DNA from: Odiellus spinosus
Lineage: Eukaryota; Arthropoda; Arachnida; Opiliones; Phalangiidae
Assembly: GCA_963920705.1 (NCBI GenBank)
Contig: OY987228.1
Location: 18,670,565 to 18,734,564, forward strand
Length of the DNA stretch: 64,000 bases
Direction of reading: 5' to 3'
The notes under the pieces were generated by a model. The model was not told the DNA's origin and did not search any database. It worked only from the letters and a program-made list of their open reading frames with translations. A program made the position numbers and the translations under genes. Of this stretch, positions 1,664-61,413 are shown piece after piece; within the stretch, counting starts at the first letter, position 1, and every line of letters starts with the position of its first letter.

Positions 1664-2002
1664 TAGAAGCCGATGAAACCCTCATTTGAAGTCTATTACT
1701 CCCGGGTCTTGTCTACCCCTCTCTGTATGGGTTATTCTCAAAAGGCGCGATTCGTACGCCTCCTAACGGTAGATGTTTTCGGAGCGGGAGCTCGTCGAGC
1801 GAATATCTCTAGCAGCCTTGGAGTTCGTCCAAAAAACGTCGTCGTTTGTGGAGAGAGAGAATTTCCAATTTTCCGTAGACAGGGGGCATGAAGTAGGACC
1901 CCTCCGATCTCGTAAAATTGGGAATTTTACCCATACAGAGAGGAGCGCTATATGGAACATTGGAGTATAGTAGACTTCAAAGGAGGGTTTCATCGGCTTC
2001 TG
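1664..2002 (+). mobile_element. 337-bp inverted-repeat MITE family A, copy 1
   Basis: A short non-autonomous element bounded by inverted repeats of about 38 bp beginning (C)AGAAGCCGATGAAACCCTC. Here the first C is a T. It is flanked by a perfect 7-bp target duplication, ATGATAT, at 1657-1663 and 2003-2009. Inside lies a conserved stretch with GTCGTCGTTTGTGGAGAGAG. Short open frames inside it recur in every copy and in both strands, as expected for repeated DNA rather than genes. Six further copies occur in this window. A DNA transposon origin is inferred from the inverted ends and the duplication. Confidence 0.93.
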
Positions 2003-2009
2003 ATGATAT

Positions 2010-4400
2010 GTATATCTTTTGAATCGATTTTTTAATGAAAATGCTACTCAATTTCCATTTCAAGTTCATGAAAATAATGAACATAATAAATGTTATTCTA
2101 AATACGATTAAAATTAAATATTCCATAAATTAGTATAGGTGTTTAAAATATCTTATTTGTTTCAACTATCTGCATTGATACTTAGATATTTTAAAAATTC
2201 AGTTTTGCACGGTTATATATTAAGCTTATTTTACTCTAATAAAAAGCCAATATGCCTAAAGTGTCAATGCAGTGACACGAACAGCTGACGCTTTCGCACC
2301 CCGAAAAAGCCATTTAAAAACAGAAAACTCGCTGGGACTAAAATATACAAACATCGGGTGGAAATAATACGACAAAATACATAAAAACGACTATTTTATC
2401 TAAAATATTCATTGGTGGTGAATAGACTGTCAATTTTTGAGGGAAACTTGTTATTCAACCTTAATTGATGTATACCGTGAGCAATGATACTAAAAAATCT
2501 AAAACCCCTTCAGAATATTCCCCCATACCTTTAAAGTCTCTCTTTTTTTAAATAAATCACAAAAATTTCTCCACGAAAATGTAATGGGGGAGGTTTTTTG
2601 AATCAATGATTCAAACAAAGCGTCCGCGCGCACACGCTTACAAATGAGATCATTATAAAGTTGTGTGGTCTGTTTTTTTTTTTTTACAAAATTTTATTTT
2701 ATTCTTATTTTGAAAATATTTAAATATTATTGTTCATAATATTTAGAATAAATATCATAATTTAAAGAGTTAACCGCTTATTAACCAATACAAAAGTTGT
2801 TGTCGCGAAATTTAAAGCGATTTTTAAATTAAGGGTTCATTTCATTGTAAAATTAAAATAAAAATAAAAATTTATCAGTTATAGTCTTTACCAGGTACGA
2901 AGCTAGGTTCCCAATATTTTAGAAGTATCTTTAAAGGGACAGTAACACTATTTTGAACAGATAAGTATTCTAAAGACACGCTCTTAGGGAAAGAATGAAA
3001 TTTGCACGAATTCTTTCAATTATTCGTTATTTTCCCTATAATCTCGAGAAATTTTCAACAATTCTATGACGACACCAGTTTGTAAATGAAAGCCAGAGCT
3101 TGGTTCTTTCAAATTACGCACTGGATATTGATTTGGCAAGAAGCAAATGATATATTACGTCCTCAATTAGACAAAATTTGTATATTAAAAAGTTGATTTT
3201 TTGCGAAACATCTGGTAATTTTATGGGTTGGTCGAAAAAATAAAAAACTTTATAAAAAAATGAGTGATTACCCCTTTAATGATTTAGAAAACAATCTATA
3301 TAATTGCTCCGCTAAAAACTTAAAATGATCTTGAATACCGATATTTAAATAATAATGGGGGAAGGGGTACGAAATTCGGGGGTTTATCGCCAGAGCTTCA
3401 AATATCAAAACTATAATTTTCGTCTCGGTGGGTGATCCCGGAGCTGCCACCACCCCTAAAAATGATTTATGCAAATTTAATAATTGCGCGCAAAGATGAA
3501 GGCGTGGTTTTTGAATTATCGACGATTTCCCGCGAACAACCCACAAAAATTTACCTAATTTAACATTAATTAGGTACGAGTTAGTATTTACGCAAATGAG
3601 ACGCGTATTTGAGTATACGGTTAACCCATATATACTGTAAAGTAGCCCCTAATCAGGATAAAGCAATTATTAAAAAGGGATAATTAACAAAGGGGGATTT
3701 TATTTTAGCCCCGCATCGATATAAACGAAAGAAATTGTCTTTTGACGAGTTGCCTACAGTAGCGCAGCGTTCCTAATTAACGCTAAACTAATTATTACAA
3801 GTTGTTCGGATAGTAATTATCGTGAACGCGGTTCCCGTCCCACTATATCCCCTTCTCCACCCCCCCTCGTCTTTAAATCATCGATCGAATCATTACCGAA
3901 CGATCGAAGCGTACCACGGTAGCCGAAGGGATCTACAGCGCAGCGCCAAGCTTAAGTAGAAAAACAAACTCGGGAACAAAATAGTTATTATTACCGGAGA
4001 TAAATGCTAATCGAAAACTAGACGGAGGTAAGGGGGGATGGATGGGTGTAAGGGTTTTTAACGATTCCCAGAACCAATCAGCGGTACGTTATCCGGTTAA
4101 TCGAGGTTACCAATTTCGGGCCACCAACGTATTTCCTTTTCTTGTCAGTGAAGAGAGCAATTTTGAAAATAACCGAAGACCGATTATCGGGAGGTTTGAA
4201 TGGCAGGGGATCTACGAAATTACTATTTTCCACTCGGAAGAAGATTTCCAGAAGCGACACAATGGGTGAAATCCGCCTCGACACAATCTCCTTCGAGTCT
4301 CAAAGAGTTCGCGAGTTTTTCAGTCTGGTAGATGGCGCCAGCGATCGGAAGCCTATTTTTTCATCAGACTTCCCCCCACCCCGTTTATCCTAAAGTCTCC
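2010..4400. other. AT-rich non-coding DNA upstream of bi
   Basis: No coding region recognised. The sequence is AT-rich with homopolymer runs (for example T12 near 2671) and becomes more GC-rich after about 3700. Small ORFs here lack any recognisable protein feature. It may contain distal regulatory elements of bi, but nothing specific can be identified. Confidence 0.55.
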
Positions 4401-4544
4401 CCTCCTTACTCGAGGGAAAACGGTACTATAGCGTGGGCTCAGAGACCCAGGAGACCCGCGATCGACCGGGTACGATCGAATGGTATTCCGAAAGAGAAGC
4501 TGAACGAAACGTCTAGAACAGTGAAGAGGAAAATATTCGGAAGA

Positions 4545-4635
4545 GAAGAGGAGAGAGAAAGAAAGAGGAAAAAATTGCAAAAAACTGAGAAGAAAAGGAC
4601 TCGAGAGAGGGAGAGAAAGAGAGAGAGTTTTGGGG
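4545..4635. repeat. GA-rich low-complexity tract
   Basis: Purine-only stretches rich in GAGAG/GAAAGA units on the plus strand. In arthropods such tracts are typical binding platforms for GAGA-factor-like proteins near developmental promoters; that function is inference here. Confidence 0.7.
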
Positions 4636-5232
4636 CGAAATTCAACGGCAAGAGGCGTCGAACGGGAAGCGGCGAGCTCGGGCTTCGGGTTGGCTGCGGC
4701 GCGCCAAGCACTTCCGCTACGGTGCTAGATTGGCAGCCAAGGCGCCGATGCCAGGCGCCCAGTGAGGCGGGACTTGTTAATCCCACCCCTGCGGTGCCAT
4801 TACTGGCAGCTCTTGCGTCAGAAGCGCCACTATACGGCTGAAAAAGGAAGAAAAGAGAGAAAGAGATGGCTGAGAATAGAGAACTAAGAGGAGTGAAATG
4901 GAGGGGGGAGAGAGGAGATCTCGCCCCCTTTCTTTTCCCCCTCTCCCGATCTCCTCGAATTCTTTTTCTCCAGCATCTTCCATCACCACCATTCTTCTCC
5001 AAAGTCCTCCACCCAAACCCCTACAAACAACACAATTTTTTTTGGAATTAAATCTTTTCTCCCGTAATTTTTTTCCGCTTTTTCTCTTTTCTTCTCGCGA
5101 ACATAAAACCCTCAAAAATATGGATTTTGGGGGTATCCCGCGATACCGAGAGCGAAATAAAGAATGGTTTTCCGTCGCTCCTCAGCGTCTGTTCCGCGGG
5201 AGGAGGAGGGGGAGTCCGGGGTCTGGCGATTA

Positions 5233-5248
5233 AAAGGTGTACACCTTT
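5233..5248. promoter_or_regulatory. Perfect 16-bp palindrome with two T-box-like half-sites
   Basis: AAAGGTGTACACCTTT is fully self-complementary and contains AGGTGT abutting ACACCT. AGGTGT is the core of the T-box half-site (AGGTGTGA). The half-sites point tail-to-tail relative to the classical Brachyury palindrome. Lying 1.5 kb upstream of a T-box gene, it could be an autoregulatory site; ZEB-type factors could also bind AGGTG cores. Confidence 0.4.
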
Positions 5249-5645
5249 GCCGAAAAAATATAGGCGGCGCTTCGAGGTGTCAAAATTATCGAGTGTTAGT
5301 ACTATGGAAGGCCAGGCCGCGAGCGACGGGTTTTAAGCCCGGTCTCTTAATTCTTCCCCTCCCGGGTTTTTCGCCCCCTCTCCTACTCTCCCCGGACCCG
5401 CTTCTCCGTTTAGACCCGCGGTTTCTCCACTTTTCTCTTTGGCGCGTCGCTCTTCGCACCTCCCATTTTTCGGGGGGAATTCTCATCTGATTATGGCGAG
5501 GCGCATCTAGAGCGATCAGCTAGCGAAGCAATCTGCCAGAGAGCTTTTCCTCGCGAAAGACGTTCGTGAAAGAAAAAAAAATCCCAAAGTACACCTTCAC
5601 CCCTTCAGAGCCAGTCAGTTTTTTTTTCTTTTTTATTATTACTTT

Positions 5646-5655
5646 TTGGCGCCAA
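5646..5655. promoter_or_regulatory. E2F-like palindrome TTGGCGCCAA
   Basis: TTGGCGCCAA, embedded in TTTTTGGCGCCAAGAAA, is a palindromic match to the E2F core. Similar sites follow at 5438-5446 (TTTGGCGCG) and 5973-5983. Binding is inferred from the motif only. Confidence 0.4.
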
Positions 5656-5983: not shown

Positions 5984-6749
5984 GACCCGGCTATTTTGAC
6001 GGCTCTAAATCACGGTCAAAAAACGAGCGAGTTAAAATTTTAGGGGGAAAAAAATAAAAGCGCGTAATGAATCGACAGAAACGAGAAATAAACGAAGAGA
6101 AGGCGCTGGAGAGGTTAGGGAACCGGAGATGATCTTTTACGATCTCTAAAAATAAAAACTAAAGAAGACTACTAAAGTTCGTGATCTCGAATATCGCGTT
6201 CGAAAACGCGATAAAAATCGACAAGCGTCTTTTCGAAAAAGTCCCGGGACGAGAGAAAATATATTTAGGAACTTTCCGACAGAGTGATAAAAACCTTCGA
6301 ACAATCGGAACATTTACTATCATTACTCTCCTCCTCCTCCGTCTCCCTCCCCTTCGAGCGGCGCTTACTGCCTGGAACTCTTTTGTTTATAGCGAAATCG
6401 TCCCTCGAGAGCGTTTGGGGAAAAAAGGCGACAGTTTTCTCCGAACGTTACCGAAGAGGAAAAAAAAACGGGAAAAATAATTCGTTAACGTCGTTCTTGC
6501 TTTTCGGAAAGGCGCGCGAGAAAACTCGGAGCCTAGCGTACAGTCTGGAAGCTAAGAGTAGCCGGAGGTAGCGGCGACTCCGAAAGCCGACGACGGCCTT
6601 CGCGAGTCGTCGTTGACGATCCGTCGACTCGGACGCCGATCGCGGCGCCGACACTTGACGCGTTTTCGCAGTTTCGCGCGTTTTGATCACCCGCCGCTCC
6701 CGCCTCACTCCCCCTCCCACTCGCGCGTTGACGGAGCTCCGACACCTCC

Positions 6750-7162
6750 ATGCGTTTCGACCACTCCGAGCTCGGACATCCGGGGATGGCCTATAACCCA
6801 TTCCTGCTACCGACGGCCGCGCGCCAAACCGACTTTAGTATGAACTCTATCCTGACGCAACCTCAACATTATCTATCGGCGGCTTTATCATTCAACCCGG
6901 CGGCTGCCGCCGCCGCGCGAGCGTACGGCCCGGCTACTCCCTTCCCCAAGTTACCTCCCGGGCCGCCGCTACCCGGACCTCCGCACATTACGGCCGAAGA
7001 CGTCTTAGCGCATCAGTCGCGTCTCCGGCCTCTCGGAGGATTCGAACTCATGGCCGAAGATGACGGTGTCCAAGACGACCCCAAAGTGACGCTCGAAGCC
7101 AAAGACTTGTGGGAGAAATTCCACGTTTTCGGAACCGAGATGGTCATTACCAAATCCGGAAG
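6750..7162 (+). CDS. bi: bi/omb coding exon 1: N-terminus and start of T-box
   Basis: Encodes residues 1-137 plus two bases of codon 138. The start at 6750 is the first in-frame ATG after a TGA at 6729-6731. The reading MRFDHSELGHPGMAYNPF resembles the fly Omb start (MR-x-D... then MAYHPF). A second ATG at 6786, opening MAYNPF, has the stronger Kozak context (G at -3, G at +4) and also matches vertebrate Tbx2 MAYHPF, so it may be used too. An alanine run (about 50-57) and a proline-rich stretch (64-77) follow. The T-box begins at about residue 110 (DPKVTLEAKDLWEKF, then GTEMVITKSGR). The exon ends at AG|GTTAGT. Downstream in-frame sequence to 7265 is intron read-through. Confidence 0.95.
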
Positions 7163-9094
7163 GTTAGTACCATTTTTTAATTACCTTAACCCGTCTCGGA
7201 AAACCCTTAGAGAATCGATTAAATACGCTATACTCGCGTTCGTCATACCGGCGCTCGTAAACTAACGATCTAAATAACATTATTACGCGACTATAGTCTC
7301 ATCGCGAAAGGTATCAAACAAGCAACTAAGCGGACAACATACTCCGCGTACCGTTTACCCGAAAGTAATTAGCTATATTAATCATACACAATCGCGCCAG
7401 CTTTAATATTGTCGCTACGAAAGTGACACGCTATGAAAACAACTTGGCAAAACTGAAAACGCAAATTTTTAAACGAGATTGTTTGGAAACTTAGCCCTAT
7501 CAATGACTGTGACGTGTTGTTAGTCAGCGGGAGATTGTAAAAGAGTAAAATGGGAAAACTTTTTAGGAAGATCAGTATTCGGAGAACCGAGACGCCCGAG
7601 AGGAGCTTCTCCCCTTTTGAGCATAAATTAATCTGAACGGAGGAAAGGGCCCTTTTCCCTTCTTTCTTTCCCTCATAAAGATTGCAAGAGTTTTCGGAAA
7701 TCGAAGAGAGAATACGCGTTCGCGTGTATTAGATCAGTTTTACGGGGGCTAACCCCTCTCTTCTAAGTTCTCTCTCCTCGAACGATCCCAGCATCCCTAG
7801 CCTCGGGGTTCGGCTACCCCGCGGTACGTAGCCGTACGAGAAACGTACGTATACGTTTCATCCTTGAAATCTTATAAATCTTTAAGCGACTCTGAAACGC
7901 GGGAACGGAATCCTCGAGTCGGCATTAAAATTCGGGTCTGATAAAAATTCGGAAGTAAGGATAAGAAGCGTTTCGCCGCATTCCGCCTTTTTAAAATATC
8001 CCCTTCTCTCAATTTTTTTAATAATTGATTAGTTCCTTAAAATATTCACGTTTGAAGCGCTAAATATTCCTTTAACGCCGGGCGCCGTTTCCAATTAAAA
8101 CGCGAATTGGAAATAAGCAGCGGGAATCTATAACGTCTCGTAATAAGAATCGATCGGTCGCTCCGGGCCATTCTAAATTCTTATTTAATATTAACGAAAT
8201 ACAACTTTCGTCCTCTTTTAAAGATGGGATGAGATAAAAAGTAGAAAAAAAAAAGCGCTTTTCCTACGCGGAATATCAAGTCACCCATGCTCTCGCGCCA
8301 TCTAGAGACGCCCGTTTAAAACATTACGCTCTTTATCTTCAATTACGCGAGATTAGTATTCCGTAATTGATAATTAAAAGGAATTTGATAAGTTACTTAA
8401 ATAACTCGAGGACATATAGTTAATCCCGAATAATGTATTTGGATTTTTTTTTTTAATTAAATTGCAAAAATCAGAACTAGCTAAATAGTTACTCGAAGAA
8501 GTTCAAAGCGTACTAATTTGAATAAAAATCAGAATGTTCTATTGACAAGTCCATAAAGACACATCGCGGAACGTAAACTCATCATAAATTTAAAATATTA
8601 GAATATTCTATGTATTAAGATAAGTGAAAACGAGTATTTGAATTTCGGAAATGAGATTAGCTTCATTATTAAAAGTGTTGTATTATCTAAAATTATTAAG
8701 ATGACTTGATAACGTTTAATTGTTTAAATTAAAGGTTTATGGAGACCTAAAAAATACGTTCTCCGCGGGCTCGAGTGCTTGACAACTGAAAAGTTCTAAA
8801 CACACGCGTATTTTATATCAACACAGAGTAGAAATTTTCTTACAGTCAAGCATCAAACCAATGTTCACGGGGAAGACGACCTTAAGGGTCTCAATTCCAA
8901 TATATTTATTACGGGGCGCCTGTAAAACTGTTCTAACTATCGCGCGTCGGTGTACAGAGAAAAGCGGCATTTAAAGGGGTAAACTTTCAATTTAGTTAAA
9001 GGTCAACTGATCGTAGTTTCCTAAATTAAACTTTCGGAAATTTTGGATATATCTACGAATAGTTAAACTAAACAAAACCAAATTCCATTTACAG
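7163..9094 (+). other. bi intron 1 (1,932 bp)
   Basis: Begins GTTAGT and ends CATTTACAG. Phase 2: the split codon AG|G gives Arg138. Its first half is CpG-rich like the promoter; the second half is AT-rich. No repeat family or coding region recognised inside. Confidence 0.9.
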
Positions 9095-9362
9095 GCGAAT
9101 GTTTCCGGCGTATAAAGTGCGAGTGACTGGTCTGGACAAAAAGTCCAAGTACATTCTTTTGATGGACATAGTGGCGGCTGACGATTGTCGGTACAAGTTT
9201 CACAATAGTCGGTGGGTGGTGGCTGGCAAGGCCGACCCGGAAATGCCCAAGCGAATGTACATCCATCCCGACAGCCCCAGTACGGGCGAACAATGGATGC
9301 AGAAAGTTGTATCTTTTCACAAATTAAAACTCACCAACAACATCTCGGACAAACACGGATTC
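9095..9362 (+). CDS. bi: bi/omb coding exon 2: core of T-box
   Basis: A 268-nt exon completing Arg138 and encoding residues 139-227. It starts [19 protein letters not shown] and contains the highly conserved [34 protein letters not shown] and [14 protein letters not shown] blocks. These form DNA-contact and dimer-side segments of the T-box. The acceptor is TTTACAG and the donor is TTC|GTAAGT at phase 0. Residues match the Tbx2/3 subfamily ([27 protein letters not shown]) rather than Brachyury or Tbx20. A short inverted-repeat element begins only about 30 bp after the donor. Confidence 0.97.
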
Positions 9363-9392
9363 GTAAGTTTAAATATTTTTTACGTAAGCTAC

Positions 9393-9592
9393 GTTCACAC
9401 TTAAAACCTTTGAAATCGTTTTCAAAAACGTTTAGAATCTTCAAATACACTTTTCAAGCAATTAATTAAATATTTAGATAAAGAATCTCTAATTTTAGGT
9501 AAATTTTATTATTTTAAAATGGAAAATATACAATTGAACCAAAATTTTCCATCTTGACGGTTAAAAAAGGTTTCAAGGTTTCTAGTGTGAAC
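9393..9592. mobile_element. GTTCACAC-ended foldback element, copy 1
   Basis: Left end GTTCACACTTAAAACCTTTG and the complement of the right end GTTCACACTAGAAACCTTGA form imperfect terminal inverted repeats of about 25-30 bp around an AT-rich core. Similar ends occur at 14380, 16690 and 23541, so this is a family. No certain target duplication seen. The element sits next to the exon 2 splice donor. Confidence 0.6.
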
Positions 9593-11193: not shown

Positions 11194-11640
11194 GATTTCT
11201 ATCAGTGACGGAATAACCTTTAACGAGTGGCTCATGTAAATTGTATTATTTTAAATTAGTCTAGGGAATGCCTTCTTTCTAATGGTGCTATCGGTTTATG
11301 TCTAGGTAATAGTAGAGAAAAGTTACGGTCATTTTAAGATAGGGGTAATTTTTGGATTTTTGCTTGATTTCTATCAGTGGCGGAATAATCTTTAACGAGT
11401 GGCTCATGTCAATTTTATTATTTTAAATTAATCTAGGGAATGTCTTCTTTCTAACGGGGCTATCGGTTTATGTCTAGGTAATAGTAGAGAAAAGTTACGG
11501 TCATTTTAAGATAGGGGTAATTTTTGGATTTTTGCTTGATTTCTATATCAGTGGCGGAATAATCTTTTAACGAGTGGCTCATGTTAATTTTATTATTTTA
11601 AATTAATCTAGGGAAAGTCTTCTTTCTAATGGTGAAATTG
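11194..11640 (+). repeat. Tandem repeat, ~173-bp unit, about 2.6 copies
   Basis: GATTTCTATCAGTG starts at 11194 and 11366 and recurs at 11539 (with a 2-bp insertion), giving periods of 172 and 173 bp. Each unit continues with GGCTCATGT, TTATTTTAAATTA and CTAGGGAA. The third unit decays after GTTTATG. Copies are about 95% alike by eye. Confidence 0.85.
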
Positions 11641-12022
11641 GTTTATGCCCAAAAGATAAAGTCGCGAATCAGACTAGCTAAGCCTAATAATTTTCGTAAA
11701 AATTTGCATGTTTTTTCTTGAGAAAAGTTAGTTGCTATTACTAAAAGAAAATATCGTTTAAAATTTAACTCTAAAGTCGCCTACCTGCTGTCCGAAACTG
11801 CACCCCCAACCCGGCCTGAAACCTTCGCTCTTGACCAAGGTCTTATCCCAACATTTATTGATATTTATTTTTAATAAGCACGTCCTGATTAATTTTATTT
11901 TTTACCAACATGAGTAGCATTCATGCCCAAAATTATTTTAAAATCCTGTCTACTCACTAACTATAAATACAAGTACTGTTTTAAAAATAAATTTCTAACA
12001 AAACATCTCTTTCGGTTCTCGC

Positions 12023-14379: not shown

Positions 14380-14887
14380 GTTCATACTAGGCCTTGAAAT
14401 CGATTTAAAACGTTTCAAAATGTTTCGCTATGTTGCGTGAACGAGAAACTGTCTTTTCTCGAATCGATTTGATTCGATTTCTCGAAACTGCTTCGGGAAC
14501 CAGTTTCATACCGATTCGGTTTCAACAACCGATAGATGAAGCAACAATAAATCGATTTATAAAGATGATGCGTGAACACAAGCGGCACGAAACGATTCCT
14601 GGTGATTTGAATACGGTCACTAGCATTTCTTAATCGATTTGAAACGGTGAAATCAAACCGATATTAAAATCGCCAGGAATCGTGTTAAGCGTTACGTGTT
14701 CACACACTATCTTTATAAATCGATTTGTTGTAGCTTCATCTATCGGTTGTTGAATCCGAATCAGTATAAAACTGGTTCCCGAAGCAATTTCGAGAAATCG
14801 AATCAAATCGATTCGAGAAAAGACGGTTTCCCGTTCACGCGACTCTAGTGAAAAGGTTTAAATCGACCCCAAGGCCTAGTATAAATG
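14380..14887. mobile_element. GTTCACAC-family element arranged as an inverted dimer
   Basis: A roughly 508-bp palindrome. Its right half (from about 14621) is collinear with the single unit at 16690-16960. Its left half is the same unit inverted, lacking the first ~60 bp. Both outer ends carry CTAGGCCTTG-type sequence, and AAATCGATT motifs recur in both arms. The ORF in the left arm is a by-product of the repeat. Confidence 0.75.
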
Positions 14888-16689: not shown

Positions 16690-16960
16690 GTCACACTAGC
16701 ATTTCTTAATCGATTTGAAACGGTAAAATCAAACCGCCAGGAATCATTTTAAGCGTCACGTGTTCACGAATAATCTTTATAAATCGATTTATTGTAGCTT
16801 GATCTATCGATTGTTCAAACCGAATCGGTATGAAACTGGTTCCCGAAGCAGTTTCGAGAAATCGAATCAAATCGATTCGATAAAAGACGGTTTCCAGTTT
16901 ACACGACTCCAGGGAAACGTTTTGAAACGGTTTAAATCGATTCCAAGGCCTAGTATGAAC
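16690..16960 (+). mobile_element. GTTCACAC-family element, single 271-bp unit
   Basis: Begins GTCACACTAGCATTTCTTAA and ends CCAAGGCCTAGTATGAAC, with imperfect inverted ends (CTACGGTCACACTAG versus CTGCGTTCATACTAG on the other strand). The interior shares GGTTCCCGAAGCAGTTTCGA and AATCGAATCAAATCGATTCG with the element at 14380-14887. Confidence 0.7.
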
Positions 16961-19400: not shown

Positions 19401-19522
19401 TTTTTCACGAGGTATTTGTGGCACGAAATAATGTATACGCAGTGTGTGTCTAATGTATAAGCTTGAATTTTATTTTAGGGGTCCTAAATAACCAAATAGT
19501 AGTTTCTCTATATCGTTGGCAC

Positions 19523-19859
19523 CAGAAGCCGATGAAAGCCTCCTTTGAAGTCTATTACTCCCGGGTCTTGTCTACCCCTCTCTGTATGGGTTATTCTCAA
19601 AAGGCGCGATCCGTACGCCTCCTAACGGTAGATGTTTTCGGAGCGGGAGCTCGTCGAGCGAATATCTCTAGCAGCCTCGGAGTTCGTCCAAAAAACGTCG
19701 TCGTTTGTGGAGAGAGAGAATTTCCAATTTTCCGTAGACAGGGGGGATGAAGTAGGACCCCTTCTAACTCGTAAAATTGGGAATTTTACCCATGCAGAGA
19801 GGAGCTCTATATGGAACATTAGAGTAGTAGACTTCAAAGGAGGGTTTCATCGGCTTCTG
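19523..19859 (+). mobile_element. 337-bp MITE family A, copy 2 (within bi intron 2)
   Basis: Terminal inverted repeats CAGAAGCCGATGAAAGCCTC and complement, same orientation as copy 1. Flanks share GTTGGCAC (19515-19522 and 19860-19867), an 8-bp match, whereas the other copies show 7 bp. An extra C at the left edge may explain the difference. Confidence 0.93.
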
Positions 19860-20924
19860 GTTGGCACTCAGAGGTAGTACCGTGATACGCGTTTTATAAC
19901 TAGAAAAGGATGTTCGTTCGAAAGTTACGAGACTCGTAATTTTCTTAGCGAATAGAGGAAACTAATCCTAAAACGCGTCAAAATCTGTAAAAAAAAATGA
20001 GTTGTTTTGAAAATATGACTCGGCGACTACGTTTATTCTTGCTCAGTGATGCCTACCGCTAAAATAACGTAAATAAGCGTACATCATCCAAGAACGTGAA
20101 TAGATTTGACAAGTAATAATCTTTTTAGTGGCAAAAAATGCGCCAATCTTTTTGTTTCTCAACTTCTTAAACCCGTATTACCCTTCTTTCTAATAATTTG
20201 TGTTGGTACTATTCGCGCTTGAATTGACGCCTTTATAACGCCGACGAATTACTCAAATCAGTTCTAATAGCGGAGATTTTAAGAATAAAATCTTCCGCGT
20301 TGAGTTTAACAACGCGGATAACGAAAGTTTCAATTAGTTCATCTACTTTTCTCATAAAAGATATAGGACTCTTAGGTATAGATTATGGACCATATGGTTT
20401 CGTGCGCGCGTCGGGCCATTGCGTCAGTCGTATTCTCGCGTGAAGAGGGGGAGGACGCGAAATCTTAAAAAGATTTGATAATTTTCACCCAGGGTGATTT
20501 TTTTTTGGGGTCAAATACGCGAGGACGCCTCTTTATATCGGAATTGTCACGCCATCGTGTCACGGCTGGTTGATCCGGCGTGAAAATTTCACTAGAATTA
20601 AGGGTTATTATTATAGATTCTGAGGAAAAAGATGCCCATTTTCTATTCTTATTTAAGAGAAAAGACGAAAAAAAAACACAAATTAATAAAATTATTAGGA
20701 ACTTATTGAATTTAAAACGTAGTTTTTTAACAATAATTGATTACGGGGGTAATTGTTTTATATTTGGTTTTTCTTTTTGGGTTAAATATTGCGTAACTAA
20801 AATATATTTTATGATTTGAGCGTGTGCATTGCGCATTTCATCGCTAGCTAAACATGATCTCGATTAGACGAGAGTTCGAAGATGGCTTTATCAAAATGTG
20901 TTCACAGAAAAAATTTAAACTCGC

Positions 20925-21149: not shown

Positions 21150-21159
21150 GCCCCATTTA

Positions 21160-26052: not shown

Positions 26053-26829
26053 TTAAGATACGTATATGGGAATCTATTGTTACCTCAAAACTAGATTTTT
26101 TTCCTTTAAAACCGCTTATCCTATCAAATGTTGTGTATGTGTTGATGGGTTTATTGCAACCTAAATTCTTCGAGTTTATCACGAGTTCATTTTCGTAACA
26201 AATATTGAATCATTCGCCTGCCGGATTTATACGTCACTCATTGACTATAATACTGGTTAAAGGTTGTTTAGTTTCTTTAATAATATATATAAAAGCTACC
26301 ACGTTTCGTGATACGAGTTAATTTGGGAATTCTTGGCGGTAGCGCAGCTGTTCGAATATAGAATTCCATTCGCGAACGCGAGCGCGCGGTTAATTGGAAA
26401 TTCCAAAGGAAAAATACAATACACTCATTTCGCGATATTTCGCCCTCTTTTTGACTCGAGGCCTTCCTTATAATGATCACAATTCGTTAAACGAAGATTT
26501 ATGCACCAGGTATTGCGTGGTGAACTTTTCTTCTCATATAACACGGTTAAGAATGCTCAAATTCGACGCGAGAGGTTTTATTTGGAGCGATCTAGTAATA
26601 GCATTTCAACTAATTAGTATTTATATTTAGCATATTTATTTCGTGGCATACTTATAGAGCTGAACGTCTTAAAAAAGAGTATCACGAAGTATTTAAAGTA
26701 TTCTCATCAACAAAAGAATTGGCAAAATAATTACAATCTTCAAATATTTTTGTGGCCCTATTCCACTCTGCAGAATTGTTTTTTCTATTTAAAACCAGGG
26801 TATCTAAATATTTGTTATATCTATAATAA

Positions 26830-27489
26830 AACCGAATAACTCATTGTTTGTTCTATCAAAAAAACCAGTAACCCAATGTTTGTTCTATCAAAAACCAAGT
26901 AACCCAATGTTTGTTCTATCAAAAACCAAGTAACCCAATGTTTGCTATATCAAAAACCAAGTAGCCCAATGTTTGCTCTATCAAAAACCAAGTAACCCAA
27001 TGTTTATTCTATCAAAAACCAAGTAACCCAATGTTTATTCTATTAAAAACCAAGTAACCCAATGTTTATTCTATCAAAAACCAAGTAACCCAATGTTTAT
27101 TCTATCAAAAACCAAGTAACCCAATGTTTATTCTATCAAAAACCAAGTAACCCAATGTTTATTCTATCAAAAACCAAGTAACCCAATGTTTATTATATCA
27201 AAAACCAAGTAACCCAATGTTTGTTCTATCAAAAACCAAGTAACACGATATTTATTCTATCAAAAACCAAGTAATCCTACGTTTATGCTATCAAAAACCA
27301 AGTAATCCAATCCTATCAAAAACCAAGTAATCCAATCCTATCAAAAACCAAGTAGCCCAAGGTTTATGCTAAGTAACCCAATGTTTATTCTATCAAAAAC
27401 CAAGTAACACAATGTTTATTCTATCAAAAACCAAGTAACACAATGTTTATTCTATCAAAAACCAAGTAACCCAATGTTTAGTCTATCAA
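26830..27489 (+). repeat. 31-bp minisatellite, ~20 units
   Basis: The unit AACCAAGTAACCCAATGTTT followed by rTTCTATCAAA repeats with a 31-bp period. Middle units are nearly identical. Around 27300-27350 two units are shortened to about 22 bp, and the edges are degenerate. No coding potential. Confidence 0.93.
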
Positions 27490-27506
27490 ATCCGATTTAA
27501 AACTAA

Positions 27507-37807: not shown

Positions 37808-37924
37808 GTAAGGGGGATCACGCGAGGGAAATCGCTCCCAGATCGATATACCCCGATACGTATTATCGGGGTTATAGCGTTACCTATCGTTTTGATATTC
37901 TGGCTAACTGGGCAATCGTTCTAG
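37808..37924 (+). other. bi intron 4 (117 bp)
   Basis: GTAAGG to ATCGTTCTAG, phase 2. CTAAC at about 37901, 20 nt before the acceptor, is a good branch-point candidate. Joining restores KREKKRQ, as in other Tbx2/3 proteins, which fixes the acceptor. Confidence 0.88.
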
Positions 37925-39179
37925 AAGACAAGCGATGCTACTCGGTCAACCGTCGCAGCCCGTACCAGCCGCTTTGAGAAATCTGGGCGGAAGTTCCAAA
38001 CTGAACCTGCAGGACGACGACAGCAGCGACGACGACGAAAGGGTCGACGTTGGTGGAGCGGCCGATTTGAGACCATCCAGCGTCCTGTGCCCCAGATCTT
38101 CGGGTAAGGAATTAATTTCCAGGGTCCTCCTAGCTCGGACGTCAAATTCATACGGGTTTTACGCGTCCGCAGGGGTAAACGGAGCTTCGGATTCGCCTCG
38201 CCGCGACGACGACCTTCGCGACCCCTTCGACCCGACTGACCCTAAGTTGAGGTTACCGCCGGGCGCCGATTTCGGATTCGACCCGAAGATGTTCGGATCT
38301 AGCTTCCCGTTCCACGCGGCCGCCCTTCACAACCCTCACTTGCTGCCGTACCTGTATCCTTCCGCGGCCGCCGCTTTTTACTCGGGAGCCGGCGCGGCCG
38401 GACATCCCGCGCTACCGGTTCTACCTCAACTCTTCCTACCAGGAACGTCAACGGGTAGCGTAGCGCCTATCACGGGCGCTGGTCACCCGACGGGCTTTCA
38501 CCCCTTCCACTCTTTCTTTTCCGCGGCCGTGACGGAACCCTCGGGGACACCAGCCTTCCCGACACCGACACTGCCCGGTTCTCCATCCACCGGCGTTCCT
38601 CAGGGTCTCAGCTCCAACGCCTTGCTAAACGCTCAGCTTCAAGCTTTCGCGGCCGGTAACCCGTTCCTCAATCCGGGGAATCATCAGAGTTTCCCGCCCG
38701 GGTTCTTGTCCGGAGCGACTTCTCCGGCTTCGCAGTCGGACGCCAATTCGATGATGGTCAATAGGTTAAAGCAACATCGGTTTTCGCCTTACTACCTGCA
38801 GTTGAGCGCCGCGGCGGCCGCTGCCCAAGCCGCGGCCGATTTTGCCAACGCTTCGGCCGCCACCTCCTCCATCCGCACTTCGATCAGTTCGGACATGGCG
38901 TCTTCGCCCGCCGTGTCGCCCTTCGATAGCAGGCAAGACGGTTCCTTGACCGGGAACGTCACTCAGGGTTCGCCTTTGCCAGCCAGGAGAGAGGGCGAAC
39001 GACATTCTCCGGCCACTCCGCCGAGTGCCTCAACGGCTAACGGCGCTACGGCTGATACGCCGTTCAGTTCGGTTCGGGCGAGTCAATCTTCCAGCGATTT
39101 GAAGAACATCGAAAACATGGTGAATGGACTCGAAAAGTTACGAGAAAAACCGAGAAGCCCGGCCGTCGAGAAATCTTAG
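37925..39179 (+). CDS. bi: bi/omb coding exon 5: C-terminal repression region and stop
   Basis: Completes Lys302 and encodes residues 303-719, ending TAG at 39177-39179. Begins RQAMLLGQPSQP, followed by the acidic DDDSSDDDE patch (about 332-340). A long Ala/Pro/Ser-rich region includes LLPYLYPSAAAAFYS. HRFSPYYLQL (586-595) precedes an alanine run. The C-terminal DLKNIENMVNGLEKLREK motif (693-710) resembles Tbx2 ELQSIQRLVSGLE. Codons are GC-rich, unlike surrounding DNA. The segment 38104-38172 has splice sites and lower GC, so a shorter 696-residue product is possible. Antisense ORFs here are shadows. Confidence 0.93.
38104..38172 (+). other. Possible 69-nt in-frame intron within bi exon 5
   Basis: GTAAGG at 38104 follows CTTCGG, and CCGCAG ends at 38172. 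The 69-nt length is a multiple of three and contains no stop, so retention adds 23 residues (from KELISRVLLARTS). The junction would keep Gly (G|GG). Base composition is less GC-rich than the exon on either side. The pyrimidine tract is weak, so usage is uncertain. Confidence 0.5.
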
Positions 39180-42895: not shown

Positions 42896-43973
42896 TTAAA
42901 TATCGGTCCGGGCGTAAGGTCTTCTTGGCTCGGGAATAAAATACTGAGACGTCAAAAATTTTGGCATCCGCAGAAAATAAAAGTGTATCTTCCCACAGAA
43001 ATCGTAACCAGACCGAATCTAATTTTTAACTCGAACACTTTTGCGCGACGAGCTCTAATCTAAGCCCTCGTCTTAGCTGATATCATATACGTATAATCCA
43101 CAGTGGAATGGATTTTATTCCAGGTTCGTTTCCTCAAATAACTCAATAATTACGCGTAATTTTCAGTAGATTAAAACTTGAATAAAACGTATGATAAACA
43201 TTCTTAATTAATTTAAAATTAATTAACAAAGTATAATTACGTTTAAATACGTCAAAAACGTGAGTAAAAATTTAAGATAATCCGCAGCTAATTAAAGAGA
43301 ATCTTTGAAAAGATTATTCCTATACAGATCGATTTTCAAATGATAGAAAGTGTTAGTGGTGTGTAAGGTTAGGTTAGTTTTTTAACACATTTCATTTCCG
43401 TTTCAAGCCTTTTAAACGCCCTTTGATTAGCTGTTGTTTTTAAAAGTTTTATGTGGATATTAAACTCTAACAATTAGTTATATTTAATAAATTAGGAATA
43501 ATAAACTAATCGCAAAAATATTATTAAAGTTTCAAAGGCTTATAACTCCATTTCGAGAAATTTCACATGGAAAAATTCCAAAAAGGTGCTACTTTTTAAA
43601 AATAAAAAATTCAAAAAAAAAAAAAAATTGTTGATTGGTTTCCATGCGCTGGGTTCCAAAACATCATCTGGTTGGCTCTACCAAAAACAGTTTTTTGGTA
43701 TTTTTGGTATTTTTCCACGTGAAATTAAGCCTAATTTTAATTATAGCAGTAGTCCTAATTTATTAAAAATAACTTATTATCAGTCTTGTATCCATTTAAC
43801 AGTTTTTTATCAGTTGAAAATGAAAAATTGAGTTAGGCTTAGCAATATCAAATAACGACTAAGTGACTAACTGTAAATTAACAGTTTTAAGAATGTTTTC
43901 AACATTTTTTTACGCTGCATAATTAGTTAAAGAAACATTATATTTCTAGTCTTCACCATCCCTTTAATAATAA

Positions 43974-44310
43974 CAGAAGCCGATGAAACCCTCCTTAGAA
44001 GTCTATTACTCCCTGGTCTTGTCTACCCTTCTCTGTATGGGTTAGTTTCAAAAAGCGCGATTCGTACGCCTCCTAACGGTAGATATTTTCGGAGCGGGAG
44101 TTCGTCGAGCGAATATCTCTAGCAGCCTTGGAGTTCCTCAAAAAAACGTCGTCGTTTGTGGAGAGAGAGAATTTCCAATTTTCCGTAGACAGGGGGTATG
44201 AAGTAGGACCCCTCCGATCTCGTAAAATTGGGAATTTTACCCATACAGAGAGGAGCGCTATATCGAACACTAGAGTAGTAGACTTCAAAGGAGGGTTTCA
44301 TCGGCTTCTG
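43974..44310 (+). mobile_element. 337-bp MITE family A, copy 3
   Basis: Same ends and orientation as copy 1, with a perfect 7-bp duplication ATAATAA (43967-43973 and 44311-44317). A few substitutions relative to other copies. Confidence 0.93.
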
Positions 44311-45508
44311 ATAATAAGATAGTCTTTACCATCTTTAAAAATAAGATGTTTCTCAATTTCTCTGCGAACGGAAAGTTAAATAAATGTATGCAAAACTGTT
44401 ATTAGTATCTGTAGTAGACTTTGTCGCTAAACGCGCGTGCTTGCTATCACGCAGTGACACGTGGCAAACTTCCCACGTTTTCTCTCTTTTCAACAGCGTA
44501 GAAATTATTCCTAGCAACGGGCCAAGAATTCCTCCCATCCACATCCCTACTTCCTATACCTTTCCTCCTCTAAACTATATATTTTAACGGGGGGTCCCCA
44601 TTGTTTTCTTACCAATTGTTATAGTATATATAATATACAAACCAGAACTAATAGACGTTTAGGCTTAGATCATCCCGCTTCGACTTCCGAGTCGCGTTCT
44701 CACAAGACACACGAATATATTAGAACTAGGCCTTGATTTCAGCAGAAAATATTCCGCGTTCAATTATCAATGACAGATCTAAGTTTTTCCTGATGACCAT
44801 GTCGTATAGATATGTACCAAGACCCAAACAATATTCCTGAATTTAATGTATTTCCATGGCGAATGAGGAAACAAAACCTTACATCAGATAACCCCTTACA
44901 GGGTGAGCGTTTGAAAGAGCGTTTACACGAAGAGAGAGATTGAAGCCTCTAACGTTTCAAAGAGCCTACATCTTTCCTCTTAATTCGTATCTAAGTTTTC
45001 TGATCTAACAAATGTTACTATAACTTTAAACGCAACTGTTTGTTCGTAAATTTTGTGGGTTTAATATATTCAATAAAATCTGATTAGCCCAGTTTCCCCA
45101 TCGAATTAGCCTAGACTTTCAAATCATTGCCTTTTATAGATTCGGAATCGCGTGCAAGTTTTCACTGGACGGCAAAATGTTTTTTTAAGCCTTGGCTTTA
45201 ACGATTGCCTAAACAAGCTACTTATGGTCGCGAATGTTGAGCATAAAGGCGGATGTATACAGACCTGCGCTCGAGAGTGAAAATAGGTCTGTGTGAATTC
45301 GGCTTTACAGTTAATTCTCGGGCTTTCGGTCACATGATAAGGTCGCTTTCACGCGGAAAGTCCTATACCTTTCGTATGAAAATTATCGTTAATTCCAGAA
45401 TATTATATCGGGAAAAAAAAGGTTTCTTAAGAACGAGTCAACCCAGAGGTATACAATTTTGAATATGCCATTTTAATAGTATGATAGAACTAAAAATATA
45501 CTCAATAG

Positions 45509-45845
45509 CAGAAGCCGATGAAACCCTCCTTCGAAGTCTACTACTCTAATGTTCGATATAGCGCGCCTCTCTGTATGGGTAAAATTCACGATTTTACGAG
45601 ATCGGAGGGGTCCTACTTCATGCTCCCTGTCTACGGAAAATTGGAAATTCTCTCTCTCCACAAAAAAAGACGTTTTTTTGACGAACTCCAAGGCTGCGAG
45701 AGATATTCGCTCGACGAACTCCCGCTCCGAAAATATCTAACGTTAGGAGGCGTACGAATCGCGCTTTTTGAAACTAACCCATACAGAGAGAGGTAGACAA
45801 GACCCGGGAGTAATAGACTTCAAAGGAGGGTTTCATCGGCTTCTG
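45509..45845 (-). mobile_element. 337-bp MITE family A, copy 4 (inverted)
   Basis: Opposite orientation to copy 3, 1.2 kb away. Perfect 7-bp duplication TCAATAG (45502-45508 and 45846-45852). Confidence 0.93.
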
Positions 45846-46599
45846 TCAATAGGCATTAAAATAAAATTGTGACCCTGATTGTGAAAAACGCAATTCTACA
45901 CCAAAACGTGAAAGTATTTTTTCCTTTCCCGCTAAAATATGCAAAAAACGCTTAAAATTCACCCGGTGGGAATCGAGTATGTAGACTTCGGTTCATGGTT
46001 AGGAACTCGTTTAGTAACGAAGAAACTCAATTTCCGAGAGGTTCGAAAAACGCAAGAAAAAAAATACGAAGAAATCTATTAATAGAATTCGGCTTTTCGA
46101 GTTATAGGGTGCAGTATTCAGGGTGTTCGAGTCTCGCGAGCGCGGTGCAAAAAGTACATTATTTTTAAATAGGAAAAACCTTCTCTTCACGCTTCAGTTA
46201 GTAAGAGGGATAAAACTAAACTCTACTTAAGCCTAAGTAGAAGATACCCCGAGCGAAAGAGAGAGAGAGAAAATCATTTACCAGCGGATGAGTATTTTTA
46301 AAGACGAAAAACATAAGAGAATTCATTATTCGCGATTCTGTCCTGTTAGGAAATACTTAACAAGTACGTGGCTGGTACGAGAAAAACGTCCGGGTTTATG
46401 TGCTCCAAAATATATCGAAAAATATTTTCTATCCGGCTGTCTTAAAAAATTCATATTCATCAAGACGGCATTGAAAATAAGAAAACTAACCTATAACGAA
46501 GAGTGTGTTTTTTTTTGATAATTTTATTAAAGCTTCCTTTAAAATAGATAAGGGGTTTTATAGTCGAAAACAGTAGCTAGAAACGTTTCGGTATGTACC

Positions 46600-47296
46600 C
46601 ATTTCGCCCAAAACATTTCGCCCAAAATTATCTATTCCCATTTCGCCCAAGACATTTTTGGACCAAAATTATCTATTTCCATTTCGCCCAATCCTACTTT
46701 GCCCAATCGCTTTATCATTTGGCCCTAAATTATCTCTTCCCATTTTGCCCAAACTAAAAATTCCTTTTCTCAATTCGCCCAATCCCAATTTGCCCAATCG
46801 TTTTATCAGCTAGCCTAGAATTATCTATTCCCATTTCGCCCAACCCAAAAATTTCTCTTCCCTTTTCGCCTAAAACGATTAAAGCTTAAACCTTTTAAAA
46901 TTTAAAGTCTTAGTAGGCCAAAAAAGTGACTTTTATTTAATTTAGGTTAGGTTAGGTTAGGTTGGGGGGAAAAAAGTGGAAAAATGTGACTTGGGCAAAA
47001 TGAGATTGGTCCAAATCAAAATTGGGCGAAACGAGATTGGGCGAGAAGACATTAGGCCAAATGGGAATTGGGCCAACGGGAATTGGGCGAAAAGAAATTG
47101 GGCCAAATGGGGTTGGGCCAAATGGGGTTGGGCCAAATGGGGTTGGGCGAAATGGGATTTGGGCGAAAAGAAATTGGGCGAAATGGGATTTGGGCGAAAA
47201 GAAATTGGGCGAAATGGAAATTGCGCGAAATGAAATTGTGCGAAAAGAAAACTGGGCGAAATGGGAATTGGGCGAAATGAAATTGGGCGAAATGGG
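46600..47296. repeat. Inverted degenerate array of ATTTCGCCCAA / TTGGGCGAAAT units
   Basis: From 46600 to about 46870 the plus strand repeats ATTTCGCCCAA-type units every 10-60 bp. From about 46988 to 47296 it repeats the complement, TTGGGCGAAATGGGA, every 15-18 bp. The two halves face each other around a short spacer with telomere-like repeats. Long ORFs here (such as the Phe/Pro/Ile-rich minus frame) are repeat artefacts. Confidence 0.88.
46943..46962 (+). repeat. Four TTAGG telomere-type units
   Basis: Four perfect TTAGG units followed by TTGGGG, located in the spacer of the inverted array. TTAGG is the ancestral arthropod telomere repeat; this is an interstitial copy. Confidence 0.85.
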
Positions 47297-48978
47297 GGTA
47301 GACCAAGGTTTCGACCTAGTAATTTCTTCTTTATTCTGATCAGGGCGTGTGATTTGGGAACGAAATTAAGAATGAATAGAAAATCTGCGAGGTTCACGGT
47401 CATACTTAATTATAATTTACGCCGATAGCGATTTAAAACACCATGCATAAAATAAACATAAGTATGAAATATATACCTATAATTATAGGTTGATCAAAAT
47501 ATAATTTTCAAAAAAGGTTGATATAATTTCTGGGGCCTCCGTTTCTCATTAATTAAAAAAAATGAACCATTTTATGGAAAAAAAGAGGCCCATATATATT
47601 AAATTACTTCCACCCCAAAAAAAAGTCGTTTGACTTTCGAAATGGTACGTATATAAATAGGGTAATCTAAGACTACCCAATTCGAGTAATAGAGCATTTG
47701 TACGGGCTATTCCCAAATAAGTCGAGGAGGATCGGTACTTGAGAAGAGTACGGTAGATATCGAGTTCCGTCTGTTAGAAGTACTTCTCGAACGATTATGA
47801 TAGCCAGGATGGTGAAGGCCTTCATCAATCATGATAGGACTACGATCCGCGAAATCTTTTATTTTCTTTCTTTTTTCAGTCCTCGGACAAAAAAGAAGTG
47901 TGGGATTCGAAGTGGAATGGCTTCTTCGATATAATGCGAACGGCTTTCTCTTCTCTTTCATTCTCTATTTCTACTTTTTTCTTCTTGTTCTTCTTCGTCT
48001 TAATTGGCGCTGTTATCTCGGAGTCCGATCTCGGCCTCGTGTGCGCTAGGGTAGAACTCTCCGCTCTCTCACTCCACGCGCTTTTTCTACTCCAGGGTCT
48101 AGAGCTAGCGCCATTTCATCCAAGATTCGGGAGGGCGGGCAGCGGAGAGAAAAATAAAAAAAGAAGAGCAAAGACTGGCTGTCGCCCGGGTCTCTGCGCT
48201 CAATCTATCATGCTGAATGCGTTTCTTTGTTTCTACGTAGCGCCAAATGGGATTCTCGTCGAAAGGAAAAAAAGCGAGTCTTAAGAAGAGGAGAGACTAC
48301 TTCGTTCAACCCCCGAACTTGGTCCACGACCCGACGTATCTTTTTCTCGGTACATATAGACTTCAAAATCCGGTCAGAAGTAACTCGGGTACTTGGGTAC
48401 ATTTTTTTTTTTCTCCGAAATCTTCGTTACCCCGCCGCCGTCGAGGGATTGCACGGTTATCAAGACGAATTCATAATGTTAGTTTAGTAGAGTAATTAAC
48501 CATTTTTTATATAAATACGCGTATATAACATCTTTGGCCTTAACTGCCAAAGCTAGTCCGCCCTCTTTCATCCACCCCGAAAAGCCAAGTTTTTTGGGAT
48601 AAGACGACACCGCCACGACGTCGTTTTATCTAAATTTAAACCAACGAATACACACGCGGTCTTACGTTGTATAAACACTAAAAAAGTGAGCTGACAGATC
48701 GCGACGGTTCGTTCCCGAGTTAAAAACTAATAAGAACCGTATTTTGAGCTATATATCTTCTGGGAAAAGACCCTCGTTCGCTTCTAGTTAAAAATTAATC
48801 AAAGCTATAATGTATACTCGTGTACGGAATTAATACCAAGAGACAAAATTGAAACGTTGTTTGAGGTTTTAGACGAGTAAACATGCTATTTAGAGGATAG
48901 TAATGATTGGTGTCTGCTTTCTATTCATATTTAGTGGCATAAATTAACATTGATAAGTCATATTGGTTTTTTCATTAT

Positions 48979-51252: not shown

Positions 51253-51655
51253 ATGGAAACTTCATGGGAGATGAGATGTTTTTGAAACGGAAATTGGGTC
51301 GAAATTCTTTTCCTTTCATTCGAAATAATTAACGGCGTAATTTTAACTATTATATCGCTCGACGTTCCCAAAACGTACCGTTCTTCTAATTATCATAATA
51401 ATATCGTCCCAATTAATCAAATCCCGACTCCCTCCTTTCCAAACAGGAAGTCCCGCATCGTATTTGAATGCCAAAAATTAAAACGAAAAGAGATTTTGGG
51501 GTTTATTGTACTGAGAAAAATTTGATGGTTGGAAGGACGGAACTATCTATTGACAAAAGGGTGTTGAATGGTAACTTAACTTTAGTATCATCAGTTCAGC
51601 TTGGTAATTAAATCAAAACCGCAATTTACCGACTATAATTGAATATACGTTATAA

Positions 51656-51993
51656 CAGAAACCGATGAAACCCTCCTTTGAAGTCTATCACTCCCGAGTC
51701 TTGTCTACCCCTCTCTGTATGGGTTATTCTCAAAAGGCGCGATTCGTACGCCTCCTAACGGTAGATATTTTTGGAGCGGGAGCTCGTCGAGCGAATATCT
51801 CTAGCAGCCTTGGAGTTCGTTCAAAAAACGTCGTCGTTTGTGGAGAGAGAGAATTTCCAATTTTCAGTAGACAGGGGGGTATGAAGTAGGACCCCTCCGA
51901 TCTCGTAAAATTGGGAATTTTACCCATACAGAGATTAGCGCTATATGGAACATTCGAGTAGTAGACTTCAAAGGAGGGTTTCATCGGCTTCTG
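51656..51993 (+). mobile_element. 338-bp MITE family A, copy 5
   Basis: Left end CAGAAACCGATG (one substitution), right end GGCTTCTG, and a perfect 7-bp duplication GTTATAA (51649-51655 and 51994-52000). Confidence 0.93.
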
Positions 51994-52000
51994 GTTATAA

Positions 52001-55600: not shown

Positions 55601-55609
55601 TTAATGAAA

Positions 55610-58254: not shown

Positions 58255-58261
58255 GTATCAT

Positions 58262-58598
58262 CAGAAGCCGATGAAACCCTCCTTTGAAGTCTACTACTCC
58301 AATGTTCCATATAGCGCTCCTCTCTGTATGGGTAAAATTCCCAATTTTACGAGTTAGAAGGGCTCCTACTTCATCCCCCCTGTCTACGGAAAATTGGAAA
58401 TTCTCTCTCCCCACAAACGACGACGTTTTTTGGACGAACTTCAAGGCTGCTAGAGATATTCGCTCGACGAGTTCCCGCTCCGAAAACATCTACCGTTAGG
58501 AGGCGTACGAATCGCGCCTTTTGAGAATAACCCATACAGAGAGGGGTAGACAAGACCCGGGAGTAATAGACTTCAAAGGAGGGTTTCATCGGCTTCTG
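58262..58598 (-). mobile_element. 337-bp MITE family A, copy 6 (inverted)
   Basis: Opposite orientation to copy 1, with a perfect 7-bp duplication GTATCAT (58255-58261 and 58599-58605). Confidence 0.93.
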
Positions 58599-58605
58599 GT
58601 ATCAT

Positions 58606-59711: not shown

Positions 59712-60126
59712 AGGGAGAATGCAACCTAACAATACAAGTGATTTTTTTATCGGTACCTATCGTTTAAATAGGCATTATCCACCAGTAAAAAATGACAAAC
59801 TAAAATTAAACAGGAAAATAGGCTTAGCTGGATTCGTGGAGATCCTGAATTTCTTCGCATTTAAGGGTCATCGACCAATAAGAAAAGGCCTATCGATATA
59901 AGGCGAGATCTCCGTGAGACTTCCAATAACATTCGATTGGTCGCAGACCCATCAATGCGAAAAAAATTCAGGATCTCCATGAAAATAGCTAAGCCTATTT
60001 TTCCGGGTAAGTTTTAAATTTATTTCTAGTTCAATATGTGTTTGTAATCTTTCTACTACAGTTGATTAGGCGTTTTTAAACGATAAGCAATCGATAAAAA
60101 AAATCATGTTAGGTTGCATTCTCCCT
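59712..60126. mobile_element. TTAA-flanked MITE family B, 415-bp copy
   Basis: Ends AGGGAGAATGCAACCTAAC and GTTAGGTTGCATTCTCCCT. TTAA is intact on the right (60127-60130); the left flank reads GGAT, so that side is mutated. The nested palindrome (AGGCTTAGCTGGATTC...GAAAATAGCTAAGCCT) is present. Confidence 0.8.
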
Positions 60127-60130
60127 TTAA

Positions 60131-61069
60131 GGGAATTTTAAAAGTGTGATAATACGTTTTACCACCCCTTTGGAAATAACCCGATACCTAGACAAGCGCG
60201 AAAAACTGACAGGCGTCTGAAACAATGATTTTCTTTTCGGGTTGACGACAGAATCGGTGGTATAGCGCCGATGTAACAGCGACAACAAGTACGGTAATTG
60301 GCGTCGACGGGAGAAAATTTTCTTATTCTGACAGATTAGCGGAACATTTGGGACGAAACTGATGATGAAGAAAGCGGCAGAGCGGCACTAAATATATCCT
60401 TGACAATAAGTTGGTATTCCGATGTACAAAGAATACAATATCTCCTCTACCACCCATTTTTTTCATAGTTTGTTTAATTCGGAAACGGAAAATTACTAAA
60501 TCGAAATACGAGTAAGTAGAAAACAATTACCTTAAATAAAGATAACTAAATGTACATCGCGATTGTCAACCATCAATAAAAGAAATGACAGTTTAATAAC
60601 GTCGATTTTTAGTTTAATTTGGACGTTTCCTGTTTTTCCAAAAATAAGAATTCTTCGTCAGAACGTGGTCAGACAGTTGTCTACGAGAACGCGACGTAAT
60701 TTCGCCTCACCACGAATAAGTTACGCATGAAAAATGGTTAAGAACATTACGTGTACGTAACTTTATGTATGTATAAGAAATGTTTATCAAAACCATCAAA
60801 AATTAGCAATAAAATACAATTCATTCGGAATTCTCTTATTATTTGGGGAAAGGGGAGAGGAACGTATAGAAAAACACAATATAATATATAATTCTTAGGT
60901 TTGAAGGTAATAAAGTGAACTAGTTTTGCGTAACTAAAAACAGGGTTGTCAAGAAGAAATAATATAAGCTCGCAATGAGGTTGGTACCCGCCTTCCTCTT
61001 TCTTGCCTCTATAAACAGACCACAGTAACACTGCATTTTAAATTAATCTCTTGAAAGAGATTACATTAC
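60131..61069. other. AT-rich intergenic DNA
   Basis: No gene or repeat family recognised. Confidence 0.55.
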
Positions 61070-61076
61070 ATTCTAA

Positions 61077-61413
61077 CAGAAGCCGATGAAACCCTCCTTT
61101 GAAGTCTACTACTCCAATGTTCCATATAGCGCTCCTCTCTGTATGGGTAAAATTCCCAATTTTACGAGTTAGAAGGGGTCCTACTTCATCCCCCCTGTCT
61201 ACGGAAAATTGGAAATTCTCTCTCTCCACAAACGACGACGTTTTTTGGACGAACTCCAAGGCTGCTAGAGATATTCGCTCGACGAGCTCCCGCTCCGAAA
61301 ACATCTACCGTTAGGAGGCGTACGAATCGCGCCTTTTGAGAATAACCCATACAGAGATGGGTAGACAAGACCCGGGAGTAATAGACTTCAAAGGAGGGTT
61401 TCATCGGCTTCTG
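61077..61413 (-). mobile_element. 337-bp MITE family A, copy 7 (inverted)
   Basis: Nearly identical to copy 6. Perfect 7-bp duplication ATTCTAA (61070-61076 and 61414-61420). Confidence 0.93.

Follow-up and report, generated by a model that had tools for sequence, protein, structure and literature searches.

An abundant family of miniature inverted-repeat transposable elements with 7-bp target site duplications in Odiellus spinosus

The stretch of DNA analyzed here, 64,000 nt of the Odiellus spinosus genome (C4:18670565-18734564, hereafter the window), carries seven copies of a miniature inverted-repeat transposable element (MITE), each 337–339 bp long, which a preliminary description of the sequence had reported and which we found exactly where it had placed them (Table 1). 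Four of the copies lie one way and three (45509, 58262 and 61077) the opposite way, and their pairwise identity, with gaps left out, was 92.0–98.5%, in agreement with the figure of about 90% or more given earlier. The consensus of the seven copies is 337 bp long, with inverted ends of 39 bp (about 38 bp had been reported) that differ by a single mismatch at position 33. The 12-mer CAGAAGCCGATG was present at the left end of five of the seven copies and its reverse complement at the right end of all seven; the left terminus reads TAGAAG in copy 1664 and CAGAAACC in copy 51656. A second, subterminal inverted repeat of 15 bp, CCTCTCTGTATGGGT, begins 55 bp from one end and 58 bp from the other, and none of the 25 open reading frames (ORFs) of at least 110 amino acids in the window falls inside a copy. 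Short, with inverted ends, target duplications of its own and no long ORF, the family is almost certainly what it had been called, a MITE, i.e., a non-autonomous cut-and-paste DNA transposon of the ordinary kind. Among the genes of the window, copy 2 sits between T-box exons (PF00907 at 6732-7265 and 9072-9404) and an ORF at 37908-39179, which has no Pfam match and which, judged by eye, appears to be a later exon of that T-box gene.

Table 1. MITE copies in the window and their target site duplications (TSDs)
Feature	Position	Strand	Length	TSD	TSD positions
MITE copy 1	1664..2002	+	339 bp	ATGATAT (7 bp)	1657-1663 and 2003-2009
MITE copy 2	19523..19859	+	337 bp	GTTGGCAC (8 bp)	19515-19522 and 19860-19867
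MITE copy 3	43974..44310	+	337 bp	ATAATAA (7 bp)	43967-43973 and 44311-44317
MITE copy 4	45509..45845	-	337 bp	TCAATAG (7 bp)	45502-45508 and 45846-45852
MITE copy 5	51656..51993	+	338 bp	GTTATAA (7 bp)	51649-51655 and 51994-52000
MITE copy 6	58262..58598	-	337 bp	GTATCAT (7 bp)	58255-58261 and 58599-58605
MITE copy 7	61077..61413	-	337 bp	ATTCTAA (7 bp)	61070-61076 and 61414-61420

As first described, the duplications are perfect and 7 bp long at six copies and 8 bp long at the seventh. Of 200,000 random pairs of 7-mers from the window, 32 were identical, so the six perfect flanking pairs are not a matter of chance. One pair of MITE copies elsewhere (L013, C4:21005764-21006656) stands in tandem and shares its right flank, and looks like a tandem duplication of one copy plus about 20 bp and not like two insertions. 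That the family as a whole arose in this manner, by segmental or tandem duplication or as an assembly artefact, is hardly credible, given that its members occur in both orientations, that most sampled copies have a duplication of their own, and that the termini number in the thousands.

We scanned the genome (443 Mb, 286 contigs) for the exact 21-bp MITE terminus and found 18,782 occurrences (9,358 forward and 9,424 reverse), with none in either direction for the reversed-sequence control. If each copy retained two exact ends, this would amount to approximately 9,400 copies; at the rate of exact ends in the window (11 over seven copies) it would amount to approximately 12,000, or close to 1% of the genome, truncated copies being counted in both figures. 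We estimate the size of the family as of the order of ten thousand copies. Exact ends are about four times as dense in the window as in the genome on average (11 vs. 2.7 expected). No stretch in a viral contig collection contained the terminus, and a single match in a collection of genome contigs, located in a bacterial stretch of 68% GC, was read as chance, its adjoining bases being unlike the MITE by eye. A text search of the literature with CAGAAGCCGATG, or with MITE and "7-bp target site," returned no paper on the family, which does not show it to be unpublished.

Target duplications were assessed in two samples from the genome. Sample 1 consisted of 40 other full-length copies, scored from 881 first-look candidates and biased towards copy 1664, and the C1 sample took the first 30 termini in forward orientation on contig C1 and is biased to intact 21-bp ends. 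After removal of duplicates, truncated copies and hits that stopped short of either consensus end, the set pooled over all stretches examined comprised 75 copies with both flanks, of which 59 had an exact 7-bp duplication, nine a 7-bp duplication with one mismatch, one an 8-bp duplication, one an AT-rich match of 12 bp and five none. In the copies sampled, the 7-bp duplication was thus consistent beyond the window, and the preponderance of 8-bp duplications that the preliminary description had named as speaking against its reading was not seen (one copy in 75). Among the 27 two-ended copies of the C1 sample, we counted 19 exact 7-bp duplications, five with one mismatch, three copies with none and no 8-bp duplication. 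Sample 1 and the window together (47 copies) gave 38 duplications of 7 bp, one of 8 bp, one of 12 bp (AT-rich) and seven copies without an exact match, four of which have 7 bp with one mismatch.

The targets of the MITE are AT-rich and palindromic. Comparison of 59 empty sites revealed T 3 bp before the TSD in 46 and A 3 bp after it in 45, with T at TSD position 2 in 76% and A at position 6 in 80%. The resulting palindrome, TNNRTANTAYNNA, is firm in its outer and inner T/A pairs and weak in the remainder; the weak positions read RTANTAY.

These features resemble those of two Drosophila elements, Galileo and 1360, the latter also known as Hoppel or ProtoP. Both belong to the P superfamily, and for 1360 a 7-bp duplication is recorded in 274 of 279 insertions, at the palindromic target GTTNAAC, the P element itself giving 8 bp (PMC3276498; this and the other papers cited are drawn on in excerpt). 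The center of the 1360 target is TTNAA, whereas that of the MITE is TANTA; the likeness concerns duplication and target. For Galileo, PMC4168063 gives GTANTAC as the target and 7 bp as the duplication length, apart from three 8-bp copies. This target fits within RTANTAY, and, like the MITE, Galileo combines 7 bp with rare 8 bp and has a palindrome that extends past the duplication. It differs in its long inverted ends and in its flank, AANGT...ACNTT, where the MITE has T/A 3 bp outside. The earlier statement that hAT and P elements usually give 8 bp therefore holds for P itself and for hobo and fails, as these excerpts have it, for 1360 and Galileo, and the view that 7 bp separates the MITE from P elements is not supported, because both show the same mixture of 7 and 8 bp. 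We lean towards a driving transposase of the P superfamily, which would come from a lineage with a 7-bp stagger like that of 1360 and Galileo. The grounds for this are the palindrome, the length of the footprint and its 7/8 mixture; a transposase between the ends is not among them.

Transposase domains of this type are abundant in the genome. PF21788, the GTP-binding insertion domain of P-type transposases, had at least 144 matches (150 scored of 164 candidates), among them several equal-score sets with long open frames. In C1:517161-527160 (L082), positions 2733-5572 encode, across three overlapping frames, a P-type transposase with THAP, HTH, RNase H and GTP-binding domains; it matches the P transposase structure 6p5a with an E-value of 3.5e-56. 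Inverted ends with a duplication of 7 or 8 bp were not convincingly present around this transposase (best 12/14 bases), and it was rejected as a partner of the MITE terminus in L081, approximately 7 kb away, no MITE end with 12/32 or fewer mismatches being present in L082. The transposase is followed in L082 by a 515-amino-acid ORF (6259-7803) with YqaJ and viral alkaline exonuclease domain matches. Elsewhere, three copies of one P-type transposase type of approximately 800 amino acids are 99.4–99.7% alike over about 350 bp at the 3′ end.

Several results weigh against the P assignment. For 30 of 62 matches to a piece of P transposase, representing 28 distinct places (two pairs overlap), we examined the match with 1.5-kb flanks, and MITE ends flanked the transposase at none of the 30 loci, with up to 11/32 mismatches allowed; the autonomous partner, not evident in the preliminary description, is still not evident. 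Four P families, A, X, Y and F5, had ends that could be located by comparing copies: the 5′ end of A is CCAAGGTTACTATAG (three copies), the 5′ end of X is TAGAGTATCTATAG (two copies), and the 3′ end of F5, seen in three copies, reads inward from about CCGGTGCCTCCGAG. Family Y (C17:3505890-3510112; CAGAGTGAGTAAAG), whose 3′ end was seen in two copies, has CAGA...TCTG tips like those of the MITE; its C17 copy has both ends and the duplication ATTTGGGT, which is 8 bp and not 7 (one copy checked), and the 5′ end was not seen in the C168 stretch. Over the first 11 bases, families A, X, Y and F5 match the MITE at only 4, 3, 5 and 5 positions, respectively. Repbase groups non-autonomous elements by equal TSD length and by positions 1–11, with one mismatch, in the wording of PMC4455052, and by a rule of this type, made for non-autonomous pairs and applied here to autonomous elements, none of the four families qualifies; as this measure fails against all four P families tested, we have not filed the MITE as a P element. 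In four further P families (L122-L125), no MITE end was found past the domain, in stretches that may end before the element does. By comparison, the P-MITEs of Anopheles gambiae were assigned to P subfamilies via shared ends, according to the excerpt of PMC1562414; they differ from the present family in their 8-bp duplications and in that related P elements were found there and none here. The target site also gives less than a full match: only four positions are strong (0.65–0.78 bits each, all others at most 0.23), T2 and A6 co-occur in 34 of the 59 empty sites, the Galileo motif AANGT...ACNTT lacks the T found 3 bp ahead of the TSD, and hobo, too, prefers T at position 2 and A at the last position but one (NTNNNNAN).

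Another P match, at C1:510314-510661, lies approximately 1.9 kb to the left of the L081 terminus mentioned above (C1:512561); that terminus is part of a truncated copy and points away from the match. The idea that the MITE arose by internal deletion, its junction lying at consensus 126/127 (L051, L055), was rejected, the 10-kb stretches showing a 169-bp shortened copy and a truncated copy. In L100, an ordinary MITE copy (1827-2164) adjoins a P transposase match that holds an internal stop, and was apparently inserted into it.

The hobo-like preference leads to hAT elements, one family of which might have driven the MITE with a stagger of 7 bp instead of 8, a possibility that we hold to be real though rather doubtful. 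hAT elements and their MITEs share with our family the CAG tip and, within the duplication, T as the second and A as the second-last base. The hAT dimerisation domain had at least 150 matches in the genome (150 scored of 220 candidates), at least as many as P, which is a further point against preferring the latter. In addition, an example command in the Repbase paper extracts hAT families annotated "7-bp TSD" (PMC4455052), a hint from which corresponding Repbase entries are expected to exist. The MITE terminus was, however, absent from five 400-bp stretches past hAT transposase ends (best 15–17/32 mismatched), three of which contain the putative hAT tips CAGTGGCG, CAGTAGCG and CAGTGCCG. These tips, which lie in L131 (CAGTGGCGCC), L132 (CAGTAGCGCC) and L130 (CAGTGCCGGA) and were seen in one copy each, share 5, 6 and 7 of 11 bases with the MITE, the last above every P tip, and because of these values the likeness of tips is no argument for P over hAT. 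Against hAT stands the duplication itself: the 8 bp to be expected, reported for hobo in 1,196 of 1,198 cases (PMC3276498), were met in one of 75 MITE copies.

The search for a transposase covered P and hAT only, and none was located between the MITE ends, so that another superfamily (MULE, Dada, KDZ or an undescribed one) making 7-bp duplications also has to be weighed. Dada elements make 6–7-bp duplications and target small-RNA genes; in the window, neither an Rfam match at gathering score nor a tRNA (ARAGORN, bacterial code) was present. The CA..TG tip, the 7/8-bp mixture and the palindromic target, by contrast, all have P precedents in the literature excerpted above, and we judge another superfamily to be quite improbable. 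The driver could also be an undescribed transposase lineage with its own palindromic target TNNRTANTAYNNA, either a 7-bp P clade outside Drosophila or a separate superfamily, which we consider unlikely.

We infer that the copies were transposed in trans. A transposase made elsewhere would bind the inverted ends of 39 bp and might also bind the subterminal repeat of 15 bp; the element would be excised and then joined to an AT-rich palindromic target with a stagger of 7 bp, rarely 8, and the 7-bp stagger would leave the 7-bp duplication. If a P-superfamily transposase is indeed responsible, this large and well-preserved MITE family, which leaves clean footprints of 7 bp and shares its genome with many P-type transposase domains, would extend to another animal the 7-bp mode known from 1360 and Galileo, and would provide many insertions for target-site study; without the P link, it is a matter of ordinary repeat annotation.

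The preliminary description had also called the family recently active, which we found to be only moderately supported. Divergence from the window consensus ranged from 1.5 to 6.8% among 25 copies of the C1 sample (median 4.4%). An alignment of 72 copies, including the biased 40, has 13 columns with a second state at 20% or more, indicating that several subfamilies were amplified. Within this alignment, copy L014 has zero substitutions relative to the 72-copy consensus, and the two closest pairs are 0.3% apart each; one consists of window copy 1664 and L010, approximately 5 kb apart with different duplications, and the other has its members on C4 and C16. Local hopping was rejected as an explanation, since near pairs among 30 copies were no more alike than chance (p = 0.16, 0.22 and 0.29 for 5, 10 and 20 kb). 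The substitution rate in insects is near 3e-9 per site per generation, at which most copies of the C1 sample would date back millions of generations; these figures do not establish that the family is active at present.

Other repeats were observed alongside the MITE. A 529-bp copy in L058, considered as a MITE variant, proved to be a MITE carrying an inserted second small element, which has ends like CATAGTTTTCACTAAAGGGG, is flanked by TATA and occupies L058 1553-1750; the same small element occurs at L133 201. A 199-bp repeat in the window (14667-14865 and 16731-16929) is another dispersed repeat, given partial copies (86% identical) in L003 and L007. Three tandem units of about 172–175 bp each lie at 11194-11647, and a tandem array of 31-bp units lies at 26766-27580. 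A further tandem array, at 46952-47330, is built of 15–16-bp units (TTGGGCGAAATGGGA-like), and is dispersed, since an 87% identical array is present at L079 4803-5131 on C1.

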